Below, one piece after another: positions 8,257-14,704 of a stretch of DNA of 64,000 bases. Both the position numbers and the translations under genes were made by a program. Within the stretch, counting starts at the first letter, position 1. The number at the start of each line of letters is the position of its first letter. Below the pieces are notes generated by a model. That model saw only the letters and a list, made by a program, of their open reading frames with translations. It searched no databases and was not told where the DNA came from. Source of the stretch: Thermoplasmatota archaeon (GTDB lineage Archaea; Thermoplasmatota; E2; DHVEG-1). The DNA is taken from positions 1 through 64,000 of the forward strand of contig JAUXAU010000001.1 in the NCBI GenBank assembly GCA_030619765.1, written 5' to 3'.

Positions 8257-8301
8257 TGCTATTCCTCCTAGAAAAATATTTTTGTAGGTCTTTTTTAGTT
8301 T

Positions 8302-8359
8302 CCTACGACAGCCTTGTTAGGCTGTTTCGTTTGATAACTAATCAAACTCATCAGATAGG
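8302..8359 (-). ncRNA. Type I hammerhead ribozyme HHR-1
   Basis: RC: CCTAT-CTGATGA-GTTTGAT-TAGTT-ATCAAAC-GAAA-CAGCC-taacaa-GGCTG-TC|GTAGG. All three stems pair; GUC cleavage triplet. Confidence 0.92.
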
Positions 8360-8369
8360 CTTTGGATAA

Positions 8370-8615
8370 TTACCAACTAACTCTTGTTTGGATAATCTTC
8401 CAAAGAAATGATTCCCATCTTTTTTCTGTTGGTTTCCATCTTTTTGGCTGCCAAGCAGCAAGATGAATTTTCACATTTCCATCACCCCATTGAGAATTTG
8501 CAATCGCGGCTGCAGAATTCTGATCGTTAGGAAAACACTCATCGTAACGAAGCATATCAATGGGAAAATGTCCCTTGCCCTCAACGGTAAAAGTATGTAA
8601 CATTCTACTTTCCAT
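8370..8615 (-). CDS. Hypothetical small protein
   Basis: ORF; taggaggaagag RBS. Confidence 0.65.
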   Translation of the reverse strand: MESRMLHTFTVEGKGHFPIDMLRYDECFPNDQNSAAAIANSQWGDGNVKIHLAAWQPKRWKPTEKRWESFLWKIIQTRVSW

Positions 8616-8706
8616 TTCTCTTCCTCCTAAATAAAATTTGTTGGACTAACTGTCCACCAAAGAGCTCCTTAGAGCCCTTCAGTTGAAAGTTGTCTTTCCC
8701 TACAGA

Positions 8707-8877
8707 TTATGTGTCGTTCTCGCTATACAGACAATCTTCTCGTAAAGCTTTGATAGCGTCTTCAAAAGCTGCATACTCTTCTTTAGTAATGGCTCCCTTG
8801 ATTGCGTACAAATCTTGTTTTTCATTGTACTCAAAGCGCTTCTGTAGGTTGTGTAAAAGCACTACACGTGTATCCAT
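8707..8877 (-). CDS. Small hypothetical protein (56 aa)
   Basis: MDTRVVLLHNLQKRFEYNEKQDLYAIKGAITKEEYAAFEDAIKALREDCLYSENDT; taggaggaacg RBS. Confidence 0.65.
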   Translation of the reverse strand: MDTRVVLLHNLQKRFEYNEKQDLYAIKGAITKEEYAAFEDAIKALREDCLYSENDT

Positions 8878-8914
8878 TTTCGTTCCTCCTAAAAGATTTA
8901 TTTGCGGTTTTCTA

Positions 8915-9118
8915 CTACTGTCCGCTTATGGCAGTCAATTTTTCATCAGTTTTGATACACCTATTACATATTTTACGAGATGATATTTTGCCACTGCGGT
9001 GATATCTTCGAATCAGAAAATACAATTCTCGACGAAAACATTTACCACATCGAGCGCACAAAGTCTCTAAACTATGTGCTTTCATAGTGATGACTTTTTT
9101 GCGAATTATTGTTTTCAT
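8915..9118 (-). CDS. Small Zn-finger-like protein
   Basis: CARCGKCF...SSRKICNRCIK; AGGAGG upstream. Confidence 0.55.
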   Translation of the reverse strand: MKTIIRKKVITMKAHSLETLCARCGKCFRRELYFLIRRYHRSGKISSRKICNRCIKTDEKLTAISGQ

Positions 9119-9148
9119 ATTTTTCCTCCTGAAAAATATTTGTGGTTT

Positions 9149-9209
9149 CCCACTAGCACCAACTTAATGGTGCTTTCGAATAGTTACCAACTATTTCTCA
9201 TCAGGTGAG
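9149..9209 (-). ncRNA. Type I hammerhead ribozyme HHR-2
   Basis: RC: CTCAC-CTGATGA-GAAATAGT-TGGTA-ACTATTC-GAAA-GCACC-attaagtt-GGTGC-TA|GTGGG; overlaps 3' end of upstream ORF (HSPDEK*). Confidence 0.88.
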
Positions 9210-9394
9210 TGACCATGTGCAGTTGCTTGAAACTTTGTCTCATCAAAATTAGGATCGTCCTTAGCAAATAAAGCACATAGATCATGATTGATTGAATCTA
9301 TAACACAACCAGCAATAGATCGTTTTGATGGATAATCACTGTATGCTTTTGCCAAAACATCAGCAAATTTTTTGTAGTCTTTCTTTGTCATCAT
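9191..9394 (-). CDS. Hypothetical small protein
   Basis: MMTKKDYKKFADVLAKAYSDYPSKRSIAGCVIDSINHDLCALFAKDDPNFDETKFQATAHGHSPDEK; RBS aggaggaag; ORF track extends to 9460. Confidence 0.65.
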   Translation of the reverse strand: MMTKKDYKKFADVLAKAYSDYPSKRSIAGCVIDSINHDLCALFAKDDPNFDETKFQATAHGHSPDEK

Positions 9395-9414
9395 TGTCTT
9401 CCTCCTGTAAAAAT

Positions 9415-9591
9415 TTAGATTACTAATTTTGCAATTAAATTTTTTAATTTCTGCAAACATTTTGGACAGAGTCGAAAGATTATCCCTCCAAAACCGGTAG
9501 AAATAGTGATCTCAAAAACTGTTGTCTCATTGCATTTGCAACTATTACATGATCCAGCTGTAGCCTTAGTAGTTTGATTTAGTTCAACCAT
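9415..9591 (-). CDS. Small Zn-ribbon-like protein (58 aa)
   Basis: MVELNQTTKATAGSCNSCKCNETTVFEITISTGFGGIIFRLCPKCLQKLKNLIAKLVI; AGGAGG RBS. Confidence 0.65.
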   Translation of the reverse strand: MVELNQTTKATAGSCNSCKCNETTVFEITISTGFGGIIFRLCPKCLQKLKNLIAKLVI

Positions 9592-9621
9592 TTGTCTTCC
9601 TCCTAAAAAATATTGTAGTTT

Positions 9622-9684
9622 CCCACTACAGCTTTTTTAAAAAAGCTGTTTCGATCAGCAACCAACTAATCATCTTCAGGTGGG
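9622..9684 (-). ncRNA. Type I hammerhead ribozyme HHR-3 (variant core CUGAAGA+U)
   Basis: RC: CCCAC-CTGAAGA-T-GATTAGT-TGGTT-GCTGATC-GAAA-CAGCTTTTTTAAAAAAGCTG-TA|GTGGG. Confidence 0.82.
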
Positions 9685-10220
9685 CTTTCAATAACTTTAA
9701 TAATTTTTTTCATTTGATCTGCTGAAAGATTTCCATAAATAGCGATGTCACAGAGATTATCAGTGTCTTTACGAAAAGCAATTTTGGTTTCTTCTGCAGA
9801 CTCTCCGTTTCTGGCAAACATGTAATAAAATTGAAAAGGTGCAGTAAGATTGCACTTCACACATCTGTTGAAAATTGACTCTAAATCTGTTACAGTTTCT
9901 TGTCTTGCTTCATCTTTTGCATCTTCTCGAAGTTGATCAATCTTGTTTTTGCTTGCAAGTTCTTTCACCTTTTTTACAACAGAATTCGGCTTTGTGTAAA
10001 ACTTTCTTTTGTATGTTACAAGATCTGTCAACTTGTAGTGCCACCTGCCAGTCAAATGCCACCCATCAAAGATCTCTTCGTATTTGAGATCAAATTCAGA
10101 TCCATCAAACTTGAGTTTTAGAAATCTGCTTTCAGTGATGTCTTTTACTTCAGATACTTCAATTGTGGCATCCTCAAGCACTTTTTTCACTTCAGGAATC
10201 CAGAGTTTTTTAACACTCAT
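9666..10220 (-). CDS. Hypothetical protein
   Basis: MSVKKLWIPEVKK... ending ESPPEDD*; RBS taggaggaac; ORF track extends to 10277. Confidence 0.7.
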   Translation of the reverse strand: MSVKKLWIPEVKKVLEDATIEVSEVKDITESRFLKLKFDGSEFDLKYEEIFDGWHLTGRWHYKLTDLVTYKRKFYTKPNSVVKKVKELASKNKIDQLREDAKDEARQETVTDLESIFNRCVKCNLTAPFQFYYMFARNGESAEETKIAFRKDTDNLCDIAIYGNLSADQMKKIIKVIESPPEDD

Positions 10221-10265
10221 TTTTGTTCCTCCTAAAAAGATTTTTGTAGGTCTCATTTTTAGTTT

Positions 10266-10325
10266 CCTACAAGTCACTTAAAAAGTGACTTTCGATCAAG
10301 TACAACTTGATCCTCATCAGGTAGG
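10266..10325 (-). ncRNA. Type I hammerhead ribozyme HHR-4
   Basis: RC: CCTAC-CTGATGA-G-GATCAAG-TTGTA-CTTGATC-GAAA-GTCACTT-ttt-AAGTGAC-TT|GTAGG. Confidence 0.88.
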
Positions 10326-10505
10326 TATTTCTTCTTTAAACCATAATCTTGCATACTCTTTGGGAATTGCAGTTATACGTCCACCACCATAATCAATTTT
10401 ATATGCTGGGATTCTTTTGCCAATTGTCCCTTTTCCAACAACTTTGCCTCTAAGCATGTTGTCTTCGTCAACAATCCAATCACCTATTTCTATTTTTTCG
10501 TTCAT
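10317..10505 (-). CDS. Hypothetical small protein
   Basis: MNEKIEIGDWIVDEDNMLRGKVVGKG...EEIPT*; stop UGA lies inside HHR-4 core. Confidence 0.7.
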   Translation of the reverse strand: MNEKIEIGDWIVDEDNMLRGKVVGKGTIGKRIPAYKIDYGGGRITAIPKEYARLWFKEEIPT

Positions 10506-10528
10506 TTCTTTCTCCTAGAAATAAAATA

Positions 10529-10572
10529 TAGCCCACCAGGGAATCGAACCCCGGTTGTGCTACCAGCAAGCT
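10529..10572 (-). ncRNA. Truncated tRNA-like element (acceptor-like + D-like + T arm, no anticodon arm)
   Basis: RC: AGCUU-GCUGGUAGC-ACA-ACCGGGG-UUCGAUU-CCCUGGU-GGGCU-A; no complementary full 5' acceptor (AGCCCAC) upstream. Confidence 0.55.
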
Positions 10573-10590
10573 TCAAAACTGGAATACTTT

Positions 10591-10761
10591 TTAGTATTCT
10601 GTGACAAGGCAAAGTTTACCATTCTCGTCACAAGAAAGTTTTTTCCGTTCGATGCCATCTGTATCATAGTCAAATACAAAAACTTTAATGCTGTCTTCAC
10701 TCTTAACTACATTCTGGATAAGACCGTTGGAAACACTGATATGTATTTGTTCTGCACCCAT
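10591..10761 (-). CDS. Small hypothetical protein (56 aa)
   Basis: MGAEQIHISVSNGLIQNVVKSEDSIKVFVFDYDTDGIERKKLSCDENGKLCLVTEY; taggaggtt RBS. Confidence 0.7.
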   Translation of the reverse strand: MGAEQIHISVSNGLIQNVVKSEDSIKVFVFDYDTDGIERKKLSCDENGKLCLVTEY

Positions 10762-10784
10762 TCTAAACCTCCTAAAATAAGATA

Positions 10785-10855
10785 CGTTGGGAGTTGGACT
10801 TGAACCAACACCCTTACGGTTAACAGCCGTATGCTCTACATTGAGCTATCCCAAC
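10785..10855 (-). tRNA. tRNA-Asn(GTT)
   Basis: RC: GTTGGGA TA GCTCAATGTAGAGC A TACGG CTGTTAA CCGTA AGGGT GTTGG TTCAAGT CCAAC TCCCAAC G; full cloverleaf. Confidence 0.92.
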
Positions 10856-11043
10856 TATTCAGCAATTTCTCTTGCCACTCTGATTCTTCTTGCAATCCTT
10901 ATTATTTTTTTGTTGTTGTTTTTTCTCCAGAACTTTTCTTTTGCGGCCTCACGAGATAGTCTCTTGTCTCTTTTAACTCTGCCACCTTCAGTTCTGTCCA
11001 ATTCTTCTTGTGCATCCTCAAATGTGTATTTTTCTATTATCAT
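10855..11043 (-). CDS. Small basic protein
   Basis: ORF MIIEKYTFEDAQEELDRTEGG...; stop codon abuts tRNA-Asn. Confidence 0.55.
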   Translation of the reverse strand: MIIEKYTFEDAQEELDRTEGGRVKRDKRLSREAAKEKFWRKNNNKKIIRIARRIRVAREIAE

Positions 11044-11219
11044 CTTTTTTTTCTTCGAAACTTGCTTTTGTTGTTTCGTTTTCGTACTACAGATGAGAAT
11101 CTTTCTCGTGGATTATCAGATGGGTAGATATAATCCCATACTGATCTATTGCGTGTTGACATAGTTGCTAAAGCTAACATTAGTGATATTGAGCTTTTTC
11201 CAGTTGTTCGTTTATCCAT
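11040..11219 (-). CDS. Small basic protein (59 aa)
   Basis: MDKRTTGKSSISLMLALATMSTRNRSVWDYIYPSDNPRERFSSVVRKRNNKSKFRRKKR; aaggagaaag RBS; ATGA overlap with next gene. Confidence 0.6.
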   Translation of the reverse strand: MDKRTTGKSSISLMLALATMSTRNRSVWDYIYPSDNPRERFSSVVRKRNNKSKFRRKKR

Positions 11220-11251
11220 TTTCTTTCTCCTTAGAATAAATTGATGTGATT

Positions 11252-11416
11252 TTATTTAGTTACAAGACAATCACCATTTGTGTTGTATGAATCAAAAGCA
11301 TGCAAGCACATCTGTGCATCTTTACAATGAGCACAAGTAAAATTTTTAAACTTGAATTTGTGCAATCTTTTGTAAAGAAACCAATTTCCCAAAACAAGCA
11401 TTAGTTTTTGCACCAT
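11252..11416 (-). CDS. Small Cys-containing protein
   Basis: MVQKLMLVLGNWFLYKRLHKFKFKNFTCAHCKDAQMCLHAFDSYNTNGDCLVTK; AGGAGG RBS. Confidence 0.65.
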   Translation of the reverse strand: MVQKLMLVLGNWFLYKRLHKFKFKNFTCAHCKDAQMCLHAFDSYNTNGDCLVTK

Positions 11417-11447
11417 ATCTTTTCCTCCTAAAATAAATTTGTGGTTT

Positions 11448-11507
11448 CCCACGAGCAGCTTTTGAAGCTGCTTTCGACTGATCACCAATCAATCATCTTC
11501 AGGTGGG
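11448..11507 (-). ncRNA. Type I hammerhead ribozyme HHR-5 (variant core CUGAAGA+U)
   Basis: RC: CCCAC-CTGAAGA-T-GATTGAT-TGGTG-ATCAGTC-GAAA-GCAGCTTcaaAAGCTGC-TC|GTGGG. Confidence 0.87.
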
Positions 11508-11650
11508 TTAATCCTTTCAACTTTTTTTCCGTTAGGGTAAACACGAAGGGTTTTTTGTTTGTAGTGGACTATGATTGAATGTGCAACCATAGTTGCGACT
11601 GTGACTGCTGCGTGCAAATCTTTGCATTCGTACAATTTTACTTGTTTCAT
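11489..11650 (-). CDS. Small hypothetical protein (53 aa)
   Basis: MKQVKLYECKDLHAAVTVATMVAHSIIVHYKQKTLRVYPNGKKVERINPPEDD*; C-terminus encoded in HHR-5. Confidence 0.7.
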   Translation of the reverse strand: MKQVKLYECKDLHAAVTVATMVAHSIIVHYKQKTLRVYPNGKKVERINPPEDD

Positions 11651-11928
11651 GTGGATTCCTTTTCTATCTCAGCAAGTAGCAATGCTGCTCTTATTGCTTC
11701 ATCATATTTTAGATGTTGCTGTTGGAAGCATTGTACAGTCCATTCCAACACCTTGCTTGGATCAGCAAGGGAATCGTCAACAGAATTTAAATCTGTCAGA
11801 GCATCTTCAAATTTTCCACGATAGCTTTTAAGTTCAGCAATCTGATTATTCAATTTGTACTCAGTGTTGCCAAACCATTCCCTTGCACAAGTTATAGCAC
11901 GATTCCTTTTTAATTGTTTTAAATCCAT
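11647..11928 (-). CDS. Hypothetical protein
   Basis: ORF; taggaggaagag RBS; ATGA overlap with next gene. Confidence 0.75.
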   Translation of the reverse strand: MDLKQLKRNRAITCAREWFGNTEYKLNNQIAELKSYRGKFEDALTDLNSVDDSLADPSKVLEWTVQCFQQQHLKYDEAIRAALLLAEIEKEST

Positions 11929-11961
11929 TTCTCTTCCTCCTAAAAAATGTTTTTGTAGTTT

Positions 11962-12021
11962 CCTACAACAGCTCTAAAAAGAGCTGTTTCGACTGATCAC
12001 CAATCAGTCTCATCAGGCAGG
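11962..12021 (-). ncRNA. Type I hammerhead ribozyme HHR-6
   Basis: RC: CCTGC-CTGATGA-GACTGAT-TGGTG-ATCAGTC-GAAA-CAGCTCTttttAGAGCTG-TT|GTAGG. Confidence 0.92.
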
Positions 12022-12120
12022 TTAGTGTGTTAACTTCCAGCAGATTGTGTAAACAATCTTCCATCCAGGCAAATTGTGTCGTGCAAAGAATTTTGTTAAT
12101 TTTAATTTCCATCCATACAT
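12022..12120 (-). CDS. Very small protein (32 aa)
   Basis: MYGWKLKLTKFFARHNLPGWKIVYTICWKLTH*; AGGAGG RBS. Confidence 0.5.
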   Translation of the reverse strand: MYGWKLKLTKFFARHNLPGWKIVYTICWKLTH

Positions 12121-12159
12121 GATCTTCCTCCTAAAAAATGTTTTCTGGCTATGCCAGTA

Positions 12160-12202
12160 TAGCCGACAAAGGAATCGAACCTTTGCTAACTACCATACGG
12201 CT
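12160..12202 (-). ncRNA. Truncated tRNA-like element
   Basis: RC: AGCCG-UAUGGUAGUUAGC-AAAGG-UUCGAUU-CCUUU-GU-CGGCU-A; 2 nt after the preceding stop codon; no anticodon arm. Confidence 0.55.
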
Positions 12203-12204
12203 TT

Positions 12205-12600
12205 TTAGAGTTTTTTTATTACTCCATTAAGGTGATCAAGAGCTGCATCAAATTTGTTGAACAGTGAAAGCAATTCAACATCTTCAGGGTGCTCGTTTTT
12301 ACAGTCTTCTAAATCTCCGGCTGCATCTTCTAATCCATCAAGTGCATCTTCAATTGCGCTTTTGACGTGGCTTTTGATTTTTGTGATATTCACTTCATCC
12401 ATTTTCTTTCCTCCTAAAGACTGATTGAGAACAACTTTATATTTGTCCGACACATAATTAATTGTCCAAACTAGACATCCATTCTCATCCTCATCTTCGT
12501 ACACTTCAATAACAGCTCCATACGGATTTACGAAGAAATCAACATCAGCTTCGTTAACTTTCTCTGTTTTTTTATTAATAATACGAAACAACTTTTCCAT
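12205..12600 (-). CDS. Hypothetical protein with likely internal start at 12402
   Basis: 131-aa ORF; internal TTAGGAGGAAAGAAA ATG gives a nested 65-aa product MDEVNITKIKSHVK... Confidence 0.6.
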   Translation of the reverse strand: MEKLFRIINKKTEKVNEADVDFFVNPYGAVIEVYEDEDENGCLVWTINYVSDKYKVVLNQSLGGKKMDEVNITKIKSHVKSAIEDALDGLEDAAGDLEDCKNEHPEDVELLSLFNKFDAALDHLNGVIKKL

Positions 12601-12684
12601 TTTCTTTCCTCCTAAAAATGTTATGCAAGGCTAAACTAGCCATAAAATAGCAGAAAAATATATTTCTGCTATTAAATTGATAGT

Positions 12685-13020
12685 CTATTCACACTTTTTA
12701 TTTTTGAAAACAGGTTTGAACTCTACGTGTTCTGCTATGATAACAACATGTTCTCCATTGAACATTCTTTCTGTTGTTAACCTGCCAACCACCCGGACAC
12801 CTTTACCGTCTGTTAAATGTTCTGCACAACTTTTAGCAATTTTTCCCTTTGTCAGAATTTTAAAAAGATGACTTTCTTTTTTGTACTCATTGTCAGCTTT
12901 AAAAAACCTGACTGATTTGATAGTGAATCTGACAGTGAATTCACCAACAGGTTTTGTTTCTGCAGACTCCACTTCACCCTGTAGAGTTCCTTCTAACAGT
13001 ACGGAATTTAAATTATTCAT
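12685..13020 (-). CDS. ssb: Single-stranded DNA-binding protein (SSB, OB fold)
   Basis: MNNLNSVLLEGTLQGEVESAETKPVGEFTVRFTIKSVRFF...GVRVVGRLTTERMFNGEHVVIIAEHVEF. Confidence 0.75.
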   Translation of the reverse strand: MNNLNSVLLEGTLQGEVESAETKPVGEFTVRFTIKSVRFFKADNEYKKESHLFKILTKGKIAKSCAEHLTDGKGVRVVGRLTTERMFNGEHVVIIAEHVEFKPVFKNKKCE

Positions 13021-13056
13021 ATCTTCCTCCTAGAAAAAATTTGTAGATTTTAGTTT

Positions 13057-13117
13057 CCTACGAGCACCTTATAAAAGATGCTTTCGCTTAGTAACTGACT
13101 AAGCTCATTCAGGTAGG
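13057..13117 (-). ncRNA. Hammerhead-like ribozyme HHR-7 (core CUGAAUGA, 1-nt insertion)
   Basis: RC: CCTAC-CTGA(A)TGA-GCTTAGT-CAGTT-ACTAAGC-GAAA-GCATCTT-ttat-AAGGTGC-TC|GTAGG. Confidence 0.75.
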
Positions 13118-13131
13118 GTCTTACCATTGAT

Positions 13132-13521
13132 TCATTTTTTCAACATTTTGATGTACTCGGATGTCAAACATTTTGCAACTAATCTATCCTGCAATGCTGT
13201 TAGATATTTTAGGCCACCTCGATGAAATGTTTTGGCTTCCTTATTGTTAGTTGCCAGTTCCATTTCTGTTTTTGCTGTGTCTATCAACTCTTTTAGATAG
13301 ATCAATTCATTTGATTTTTCTACATGTTCATTTCTTGGAGATTCACACTTCATGAAGTCTGTTGGATCATGTAGACTCAAAGTTTGCCCGCATCCAGGGC
13401 ACTTGATTGTTTTAGGAATCTTTTCAGCATCTATATCCACTCGTAGATCGCAACAACAACGACATTTCTCGTTTCTACAAATTGCCGATAACATGATGAT
13501 TCGTTTTCTTTTGCCCATCAT
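13132..13521 (-). CDS. Zn-ribbon protein
   Basis: CRNEKCRCCCDLRVDIDAEKIPKTIKCPGCGQTLSL. Confidence 0.7.
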   Translation of the reverse strand: MMGKRKRIIMLSAICRNEKCRCCCDLRVDIDAEKIPKTIKCPGCGQTLSLHDPTDFMKCESPRNEHVEKSNELIYLKELIDTAKTEMELATNNKEAKTFHRGGLKYLTALQDRLVAKCLTSEYIKMLKK

Positions 13522-13721
13522 TTCACCTCCAATGGATTATCACATCCCATCAAATCACTTGCTTCTGCAATGACTTCGTGGAAAGCTTCGTTTGGTGTAA
13601 GACAACTATCAAATGCTGTCTGGTAACCATAATCCGGTAAGTCGTCAATTGAGCAGCCAATTCGTTTCTGACAGATCTTATCGATTGCATCTTTCCAGTG
13701 TTCAAATTCTCTATCGTCCAT
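13518..13721 (-). CDS. DUF5419-like small protein
   Basis: FEHWKDAIDKICQKRIGCSIDDLPDYGYQTAFDSCLTPNEAFHEVI. Confidence 0.65.
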   Translation of the reverse strand: MDDREFEHWKDAIDKICQKRIGCSIDDLPDYGYQTAFDSCLTPNEAFHEVIAEASDLMGCDNPLEVK

Positions 13722-13752
13722 TTTTCTTCCTCCTAAAAAATTTTTGTAGTTT

Positions 13753-13812
13753 CCTACAAGCGATCATTTTTGATCGCTTTCGTTCAATGACTAATTGAAC
13801 TCATCAGGTAGG
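13753..13812 (-). ncRNA. Type I hammerhead ribozyme HHR-8
   Basis: RC: CCTAC-CTGATGA-GTTCAAT-TAGTC-ATTGAAC-GAAA-GCGATCA-aaaa-TGATCGC-TT|GTAGG. Confidence 0.93.
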
Positions 13813-14133
13813 ATCTTCGTCAAGATCAAGAAGTTTTTCAGCACATCTTTTTGCGTTCATTCCATTGATGTATGCTGTGTGATAATCAAAAGGTCCAGAA
13901 CCATCAGCTACTAGTTTTGCCATTTCTTTAATGACCTTTTCTTTCCAGTCATCAAAATCGTCTGTTGCTAACATGTTTAACATGTTTTTATATTCGGGAT
14001 GTGATTCTTTTGTGATAGTACAAATCTCCACTTTGTTGTAAATCTTTAACATCCTGTCAAACATCTTTTCGTTAGCCTCCACTTTGATCATTAGAGTTTT
14101 GCCATCTGCAAGAAATCCTAAAATTGCTTTCAT
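13804..14133 (-). CDS. DUF5419-like protein
   Basis: MKAILGFLADGKTLMIKVE...DDWKEKVIKEMAKLVADGSGPFDYHTAYINGMNAKRCAEKLLDLDEDPT*; stop UGA inside HHR-8 core. Confidence 0.65.
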   Translation of the reverse strand: MKAILGFLADGKTLMIKVEANEKMFDRMLKIYNKVEICTITKESHPEYKNMLNMLATDDFDDWKEKVIKEMAKLVADGSGPFDYHTAYINGMNAKRCAEKLLDLDEDPT

Positions 14134-14164
14134 TTGTTTTCCTCCTAGAAAAAATTTGTGGTTT

Positions 14165-14227
14165 CCCACAATGCCCTGATTTTTTCAAGGCATTTCGAAC
14201 AGTTACCGACTGCTCTCATCAGGTAGG
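14165..14227 (-). ncRNA. Type I hammerhead ribozyme HHR-9
   Basis: RC: CCTAC-CTGATGA-GAGCAGT-CGGTA-ACTGTTC-GAAA-TGCCTTGA-aaaaaa-TCAGGGCA-TT|GTGGG. Confidence 0.9.
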
Positions 14228-14228
14228 A

Positions 14229-14615
14229 TTAGATAAAGGGGATTGCAATGTCTTTTTTTGCCAGATCAGCAACTTTTTCTGCTGCATCAACCGCTGCTTT
14301 ATTGCGTAGATCGTAGGCAGCCCCTTTGTAGATTCCGAACATTACTAACAAGGCTCTTATTACAGAAGCCTGAAGTGTTCGGTGCTGACCTGCAAGTTCT
14401 ACGGCCAGAACTTTACCAACTATTGCAGGACTGTTACCATTGACTGCATCAGCTATGGTTCTCATAGCTCCCCGAATCGCATCAAAGTCTTTTCGTTCTT
14501 GACGAAGAACATCAACATTGTCACCTCTTTCTGGCATCTTGTGCGCACACATTTTTGCGGCTTCTTTAAACTCAGGTGAAAACTTGTAGCGATTCCATTC
14601 TTCTTCATTATTCAT
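14229..14615 (-). CDS. Hypothetical protein
   Basis: ORF; taggaggaagc RBS. Confidence 0.75.
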   Translation of the reverse strand: MNNEEEWNRYKFSPEFKEAAKMCAHKMPERGDNVDVLRQERKDFDAIRGAMRTIADAVNGNSPAIVGKVLAVELAGQHRTLQASVIRALLVMFGIYKGAAYDLRNKAAVDAAEKVADLAKKDIAIPFI

Positions 14616-14646
14616 TTGTGCTTCCTCCTAAGAAAATTTGTAGTTT

Positions 14647-14704
14647 CCTACTATCCCTGTTTCCAGGGATTTCACTTGTTTACTAAACAAGATCATCAGG
14701 TAGG
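14647..14704 (-). ncRNA. Type I hammerhead ribozyme HHR-10
   Basis: RC: CCTAC-CTGATGA-T-CTTGTT-TAGTA-AACAAG-T-GAAA-TCCCTG-gaaa-CAGGGA-TA|GTAGG. Confidence 0.9.

Follow-up and report, generated by a model that had tools for sequence, protein, structure and literature searches.

Hammerhead ribozymes in a phage gene array with a predicted strand exchange into a 5'-terminal hairpin after cleavage

Introduction

Clustered hammerhead ribozymes (HHRs) of phages and prophages were described by Perreault et al. in 2011 (PMC3088659). As described there, these elements have an HHR core, lie at intergenic sites between small phage genes, occur in tandem copies and have a pseudoknot-stabilised fold, all of which is also seen in the array described here. 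This array occupies positions 8284-14704 on the minus strand of a stretch of 64,000 nucleotides (nt), hereafter the window, that spans positions 1 to 64,000 of contig JAUXAU010000001.1 (assembly GCA_030619765.1, deposited as Thermoplasmatota archaeon). The same paper reports that related phage and prophage HHRs self-cleave and proposes that clustered copies cut long phage transcripts into gene-length mRNAs; the hammerhead array itself and this cutting are already known from it. A post-cleavage 5' hairpin or an exchange of strands is not described in the parts of it consulted, and the role of bacterial and phage hammerheads has been called an open question (PMC6155905).

Two other systems are close in layout. 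The glmS ribozyme also cleaves itself in a 5' untranslated region and leaves a message with a 5'-OH end, but it is controlled by a metabolite and its product is destroyed by RNase J1 (PMC3328962), whereas a hairpin is predicted to mask the 5' end left by the phage HHRs. During T4 infection, RNase G/E attacks 5'-OH ends once they have been phosphorylated (PMC3014915). In the engineered RiboJ, a hammerhead precedes a hairpin with which the cleaved message begins, just before the ribosome-binding site (RBS), giving a standardised leader; RiboJ leaves this hairpin at the terminus and raises mRNA about twofold, and higher mRNA and protein have been reported (PMC6206723). By sequence, the window copies have the same layout, an HHR followed directly by a hairpin as the predicted 5' end, upstream of the RBS. 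RiboJ differs in using a separate 23-nt hairpin, whereas the natural device would build its hairpin from the stem I strand and often from the pseudoknot strand as well.

Our best reading, to which we give a probability of roughly 0.6, is that each element is a bistable device in which strands that serve catalysis in the uncut RNA zip together after the cut into a 5'-terminal hairpin, placed before a leader of fixed length.

An array of ten type I hammerhead ribozymes

The window belongs to a phage contig of 88.7 kb with matches to a DnaB-like helicase, a DNA polymerase, SbcC, UvsX, terminase and portal, and the assembly that holds it measures 3.17 Mb. About twenty small minus-strand genes, each with a strong AGGAGG-type site, are found between 15.0 and 7.4 kb, and ten of the gaps in this gene run carry an HHR, located between the stop codon of one gene and the RBS of the next. 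Numbered by rising coordinate, the ten ribozymes and the hairpins predicted from their 3' products are:

HHR-1, 8302..8359, minus strand: CUGAUGA/GAAA core and three stems; stem I CCUAU/GUAGG; loop II UUAGUU complementary to tail AACUAA
HHR-1 post-cleavage 5' hairpin, 8284..8306, minus strand: GUAGG-(13 nt)-CCUAC; pseudoknot strand AACUAA in the hairpin loop, apart from the arm
HHR-2, 9149..9209, minus strand: type I; stem I CUCAC/GUGGG
HHR-2 post-cleavage hairpin, 9142..9153, minus strand: GUGG-GAAA-CCAC
HHR-3, 9622..9684, minus strand: type I; CUGAAGA core variant; stem I CCCAC/GUGGG
HHR-3 post-cleavage hairpin, 9615..9626, minus strand: GUGG-GAAA-CUAC, one G.U pair
HHR-4, 10266..10325, minus strand: type I; stem I CCUAC/GUAGG
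HHR-4 post-cleavage hairpin, 10246..10270, minus strand: GUAGG-(15 nt)-CCUAC; separate pseudoknot strand AACU inside the loop
HHR-5, 11448..11507, minus strand: type I; CUGAAGA core variant; stem I CCCAC/GUGGG
HHR-5 post-cleavage hairpin, 11441..11452, minus strand: GUGG-GAAA-CCAC
HHR-6, 11962..12021, minus strand: type I; stem I CCUGC/GUAGG
HHR-6 post-cleavage hairpin, 11955..11966, minus strand: GUAG-GAAA-CUAC
HHR-7, 13057..13117, minus strand: type I; core insertion; stem I CCUAC/GUAGG
HHR-7 post-cleavage hairpin, 13043..13061, minus strand: GUAG-(11 nt)-CUAC, the weakest predicted among the ten
HHR-8, 13753..13812, minus strand: type I; UGA stop of the upstream gene within the CUGAUGA core
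HHR-8 post-cleavage hairpin, 13746..13757, minus strand: GUAG-GAAA-CUAC
HHR-9, 14165..14227, minus strand: type I; stem I CCUAC/GUGGG with a G.U pair
HHR-9 post-cleavage hairpin, 14158..14169, minus strand: GUGG-GAAA-CCAC
HHR-10, 14647..14704, minus strand: type I; stem I CCUAC/GUAGG
HHR-10 post-cleavage hairpin, 14640..14651, minus strand: GUAG-GAAA-CUAC

From 5' to 3', the elements comprise the stem I 5' strand, CUGANGA, the stem II hairpin, GAAA, the stem III hairpin, UH and GURGG. The CUGANGA and GAAA core strands are present in all ten, with CUGAAGA (the allowed N7) in HHR-3 and HHR-5 and one extra nucleotide, CUGAAUGA, in the core of HHR-7. A descriptor search recovers three helices joined at the core, with stems II and III closed by loops and the ends in stem I, and the descriptor has 0 matches in reversed sequence. 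The A15.1-U16.1 pair is found, as is H17 (not G) before G1.1, since UC, UA or UU precedes GU in 10/10 copies, and tertiary contact between the stem I region and loop II is provided by a pseudoknot of loop II with the tail.

The catalytic core is that of the RAGATH-1 and other Rfam hammerhead families (RF03152, RF00163 and RF00008), but the window copies score far below gathering thresholds, at which no window HHR is reported. Under relaxed thresholds, the best scores are 25.2 bits for RAGATH-1 (gathering 56.3) and 17.1 bits for Hammerhead_1 (gathering 34). Because an Rfam score is no chemical criterion, the class assignment stands: by the rules of core, topology, A15.1-U16.1 and H17 the elements fit hammerhead type I, and self-cleavage is predicted.

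A predicted hairpin at the start of the 3' product

In the uncut RNA, the GURGG strand would pair with upstream CCYAC as stem I, while the tail AAACYA, via its ACY, would pair with RGU of loop II and dock stems I and II through a pseudoknot. Cleavage between UH and G would leave a 3' product that begins exactly at GURG, which could then pair with the CYAC that lies downstream and close a 5'-terminal hairpin. Its formation would dismantle stem I, and also the pseudoknot where hairpin arm and pseudoknot strand coincide. The resulting message would open with a hairpin from nucleotide 1 on, followed by an A/U-rich spacer, then AGGAGG and the start codon.

Such a hairpin begins the predicted 3' product in 10/10 copies. 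A first-pass annotation of the window had proposed GURG-GAAA-CYAC as the product start, with GURG as the 3' strand of stem I, and this is what we find in seven copies: GUAG-GAAA-CUAC in HHR-6, HHR-8 and HHR-10, GUGG-GAAA-CCAC in HHR-2, HHR-5 and HHR-9, and GUGG-GAAA-CUAC in HHR-3, each of 4 bp and perfect or with one wobble. The three others have longer loops, as it had also noted, with GUAGG...CCUAC in HHR-1 and HHR-4 (13- and 15-nt loops) and GUAG...CUAC in HHR-7 (11-nt loop). Across the 3.17 Mb assembly, GTRGGAAACYAC occurs 8 times, 7 of them in the HHR cluster, and the reversed pattern occurs 0 times; the recurrence of GTRGGAAACYAC in the cluster is not due to chance. The eighth occurrence, the C23 match, is located within an unrelated coding gene and was discarded.

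The annotation had further described partly three-way changes. Upstream CUCAC or CCCAC does accompany the GUGG strand in HHR-2, HHR-3 and HHR-5, but GUGGG of HHR-9 pairs with upstream CCUAC by a G.U wobble, so three-way covariation within the window is imperfect and rests on one R/Y position. Its view that one strand is shared is correct for the stem I strand and incomplete for the hairpin 3' arm, which is the pseudoknot strand too, so two strands are shared. The two functions are carried by separate segments in HHR-1, HHR-4 and HHR-7, where hairpin arm and pseudoknot strand do not coincide, as well as in L072 and L135 of the wider sample below.

The next start codon follows the hairpin end after 23-28 nt in all ten copies, with hairpins of 12 to 25 nt. 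This distance is near-constant whatever the hairpin length, and the leader therefore comprises the hairpin plus a spacer of almost fixed length. In the wider sample below, the next start codon lies at a median of 42 nt. HHR products are far more structured at the 5' end than ordinary leaders: their first 24 nt have a mean minimum free energy (MFE) of -6.20 kcal/mol versus -2.97 in 1260 control leaders taken from other genes of the same DNA (GC 0.53 in products and 0.50 in control leaders) and -2.29 when shuffled. Tertiary contacts are ignored in the energies. Exposure of the RBS upon cleavage, another earlier suggestion, gains modest support, as the predicted openness of the Shine-Dalgarno sequence changes from 0.41 uncleaved to 0.50 cleaved, rising in 33% and falling in 8%.

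Hairpin and stem I in a wider sample of hammerheads

Viral contigs, and a single genome for each prokaryote species, were searched with a tail-blind pattern. It constrains solely the core, C17, the outer pairs of stem II and the end of stem III, so that stem I, loop II and tail may vary freely. With an earlier tail-specific scan added, the descriptor found at least 268 HHRs (0 in reversed sequence). Removal of duplicates left at least 240 distinct HHRs among the matches listed, 157 of them from the tail-blind pattern, and all counts out of 240 refer to this sample. A recurrent match to the first pattern (L019, L020, L021, L029, L032, L033, L040, L045 and L053) and L011, L048 and L052 were excluded by the descriptor, since they lack the stems of an HHR.

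A strict hairpin, defined as at least 4 Watson-Crick pairs from product nt 1 with a loop of up to 16 nt, is formed by 151 of 240 HHRs with their own tail, versus 80 +/- 6 with swapped tails (maximum 99 in 400 shuffles). The tail-blind subset behaves alike (97/157 own versus 57 +/- 5 swapped, maximum 71). Swapping within the same contig only, which reduces the effect of relatedness, gives 29 observed versus 19.4 expected, with 0 of 1000 shuffles as high. In the fixed register, GCGG is matched with CCGC in 36 HHRs and with CCAC in 3, and GTGG with CCAC in 27 and with CCGC in 1; the base that decides between these matches falls outside the three-base pseudoknot. When tail positions 1-5 are identical, so that the pseudoknot is held equal, the own tail forms the hairpin in 137 of 205 cases versus 24.8 expected from HHRs with another stem I. 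The mean pairing probability of nt 1-4 is 0.859 with own and 0.725 with swapped tails (standard deviation 0.008). A test of whether a helix starts within nt 1-4 of the MFE structure was discarded, as swapped tails pass almost as often.

Single phages repeat this pattern. L028, one phage with four HHRs, combines stem I strand and tail as GUGG/CCAC, GUAG/CUAC, GUGA/UCAC and GUGG/CCAC, all matching; the three copies of L047 have GCGG with CCGC or CCGU, and the six of L072 have GCGGA...UCCGC. In the nine copies of L135, GCGG-type strands have complements at varying distance, with four different pseudoknot strands between. By these comparisons, the hairpin tracks stem I independently of the pseudoknot. 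The proposal that GURG(G), once freed by cleavage, would refold into a hairpin at the 5' end is supported by a pairing that, as judged from sequence, is selected beyond chance in many unrelated phages and prophages. The GAAA tetraloop of the GNRA type, present in seven window copies, is not general: GAAG, GAAC, AAAA and AUAU loops, and loops of up to 16 nt, occur across phages, so a GNRA loop is rejected as a requirement. In L128, L183 and some Clostridia prophages, the hairpin as read from the sequences starts at nt 3-4 instead of nt 1. Because register and loop vary among phages, what stays constant in general is that a hairpin lies at the new 5' end or close to it, and not its exact sequence or a GNRA loop.

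Several results weigh against the refolding device. Approximately 37% of the wider sample is without a strict hairpin anchored at nt 1, and some of these members have little predicted structure (e.g. L107 and L133). Covariation of the hairpin in the fixed register is modest (0.185 versus 0.155 shuffled), which is explained by the roughly 40% of HHRs that have a different register or none. Before cleavage, the stem I fold and the hairpin fold are nearly equal in predicted energy (median -0.4 kcal/mol), so the hairpin could also slow the ribozyme; cleaved-state energies were computed as duplex energies. Finally, the hairpin is not clearly commoner near a gene start (P = 0.29 for all HHRs; 0.052 for the tail-blind ones).

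The wider sample also holds variants of other kinds. In the cyanobacterial L185, L228, L245, L257, L266 and L278, the tail can form a hairpin that presents a 5-7 nt complement of loop II, which looks like a loop-loop variant of the pseudoknot (for example, GGGUC with GACCC). The region of L028 has two pistol ribozymes (above the Rfam threshold), one RAGATH-1-like hammerhead and the four type I hammerheads at neighbouring intergenic sites, distinct ribozyme classes apparently in the same role. The UGA stop of the upstream gene lies within the CUGA core (+1 of the core) in 60 of 240 HHRs, and many further stops are 7-10 nt upstream. As stops cluster in or just before the CUGA core, a terminating ribosome would cover stem I, and ribozyme folding may be coupled to translation.

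Alternative explanations

The hairpin could be selected mainly within the reaction, where it would displace stem I and the pseudoknot, release the product and block religation, with no later role in the mRNA. Its arms overlap exactly both strands that hold the product, the near-equal energies of the two folds fit such an exchange, and the tie between hairpin presence and a close gene start is weak. However, the pseudoknot is untouched by the hairpin in copies with separate strands, and the hairpins of L128 and L183 and the alternative cyanobacterial ones begin at nt 3-4 and barely touch stem I. By established thermodynamics, a 5-bp stem I should fall apart unaided at cellular concentrations, and the constant spacing from hairpin to start codon points to a leader function. 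We consider this explanation unlikely.

An improbable alternative is that the tail is conserved solely as a pseudoknot strand, the hairpin complementarity being a by-product of a purine-rich G/A stem I strand and loop II. The tail AAACYAC does serve the uncut ribozyme through the pairing of its ACY with loop II, and pseudoknots linking the stem I and stem II regions are established, having been reported for all HHR types in 2011 (PMC3088659). Loop II is GGU or AGU and the tail ACC or ACU in the window copies, and the partners in related phages are GGC/GCC, GAU/AUC, GAC/GUC, GGG/CCC and GGA/UCC. In a set of 132 distinct sequences, 88.6% of the cells for the three pseudoknot pairs are paired, each pair shows changes on both of its sides, and the covariation score of stem I plus pseudoknot is 0.540 versus 0.182 shuffled and at most 0.132 when slid. 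The strongest signal of all is the complementarity of loop II and tail (at least 3 Watson-Crick pairs in 94% with own versus 56% with swapped tails). Because the tail is part of the uncut ribozyme, some of the sequence conservation of the hairpin belongs to the ribozyme, and conservation of AAACYAC alone is no proof of a hairpin. Nevertheless, tail positions 6-7, outside the 3-bp pseudoknot, still track stem I (the 36/3/1/27 counts above), and hairpin arms lie apart from the pseudoknot strand in the separate-strand copies. As a sole cause, the pseudoknot is largely refuted by the conditional swap between identical pseudoknot strands (137 versus 24.8).

It is very improbable that GURG forms an off-state before cleavage by pairing with either the upstream or the downstream strand, with ribosomes or a protein deciding whether the ribozyme folds: the hairpin is preferred by MFE in 2 of 8 uncleaved window copies folded (HHR-2 and HHR-9), and ribosomes at the upstream stops, often in or beside stem I and the core, would cover stem I, but 5'-to-3' transcription makes both stem I strands before the hairpin arm, secondary-structure energies leave out pseudoknot and core contacts, and no ligand or protein site was found.

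Other intergenic RNAs and relatives of the window

Other minus-strand gaps of the window contain candidate RNAs. At 10530-10575 and 12145-12205, intergenic tRNA-like minihelices have an acceptor-like stem and a T arm with GGUUCGAUUCC but no anticodon arm. Both are uncalled by ARAGORN and fold better than shuffles (z -2.35 and -3.25, respectively); the first has a weak match to the tRNA-like mascRNA-menRNA family. They may mark sites between genes for processing by RNase P or RNase Z. The intergenic leader at 8640-8720, which has no hammerhead, has a strong fold (z -3.13) with a long CUGAAGGGCUC/GAGCUCUUUGG stem followed by a GGAC/GUCC hairpin just before the RBS spacer, and is possibly a promoter/terminator region or another processing RNA. 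The leader at 8890-8930 has GCGG...CCGC and ends in AAAACCGCAAAU...AGGAGG, like a hammerhead 3' tail but without a ribozyme; its fold is no better than shuffles.

When compared with phage isolates by DNA similarity, the window matched in tRNAs only and L047 had no match, so no close isolate was found for either among phage records. Relatives of a neighbouring 273-aa protein were sought in viral contigs, and none was confirmed.

Implications

Self-cleavage leaves a 5'-OH end, which invites RNase J1 in Firmicutes, and an array of this kind would therefore do damage if its new 5' ends lacked protection. If the ribozymes do refold into a 5'-terminal hairpin, the likeliest use would be as a cap that shields the exposed 5'-OH end from decay starting there, either by RNase J-type exonucleases or by RNase E/G after phosphorylation; such a message would be expected to be defended by a hairpin lying directly at its 5' end. 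We infer that the window copies cleave, refold in the cell and protect their mRNAs in this way. Further benefits could be an RBS that is kept free and a cleavage that is hard to reverse. The upstream message would end in stem III and UH with a 2',3'-cyclic phosphate, perhaps protecting that end too.

It is possible, though a little short of an even bet, that these strand-exchange hammerheads are a natural and widespread RNA cap by refolding, which would give every message of an array a uniform, protected 5' end. In the openly accessible papers searched, we found no post-cleavage hairpin built from ribozyme strands and selected across phages. Because some copies carry both strands separately, mutations can separate catalysis from 5'-end protection. 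A selected post-cleavage hairpin would give phage hammerheads a concrete, testable role and, if true, the engineered RiboJ design would have a natural counterpart.

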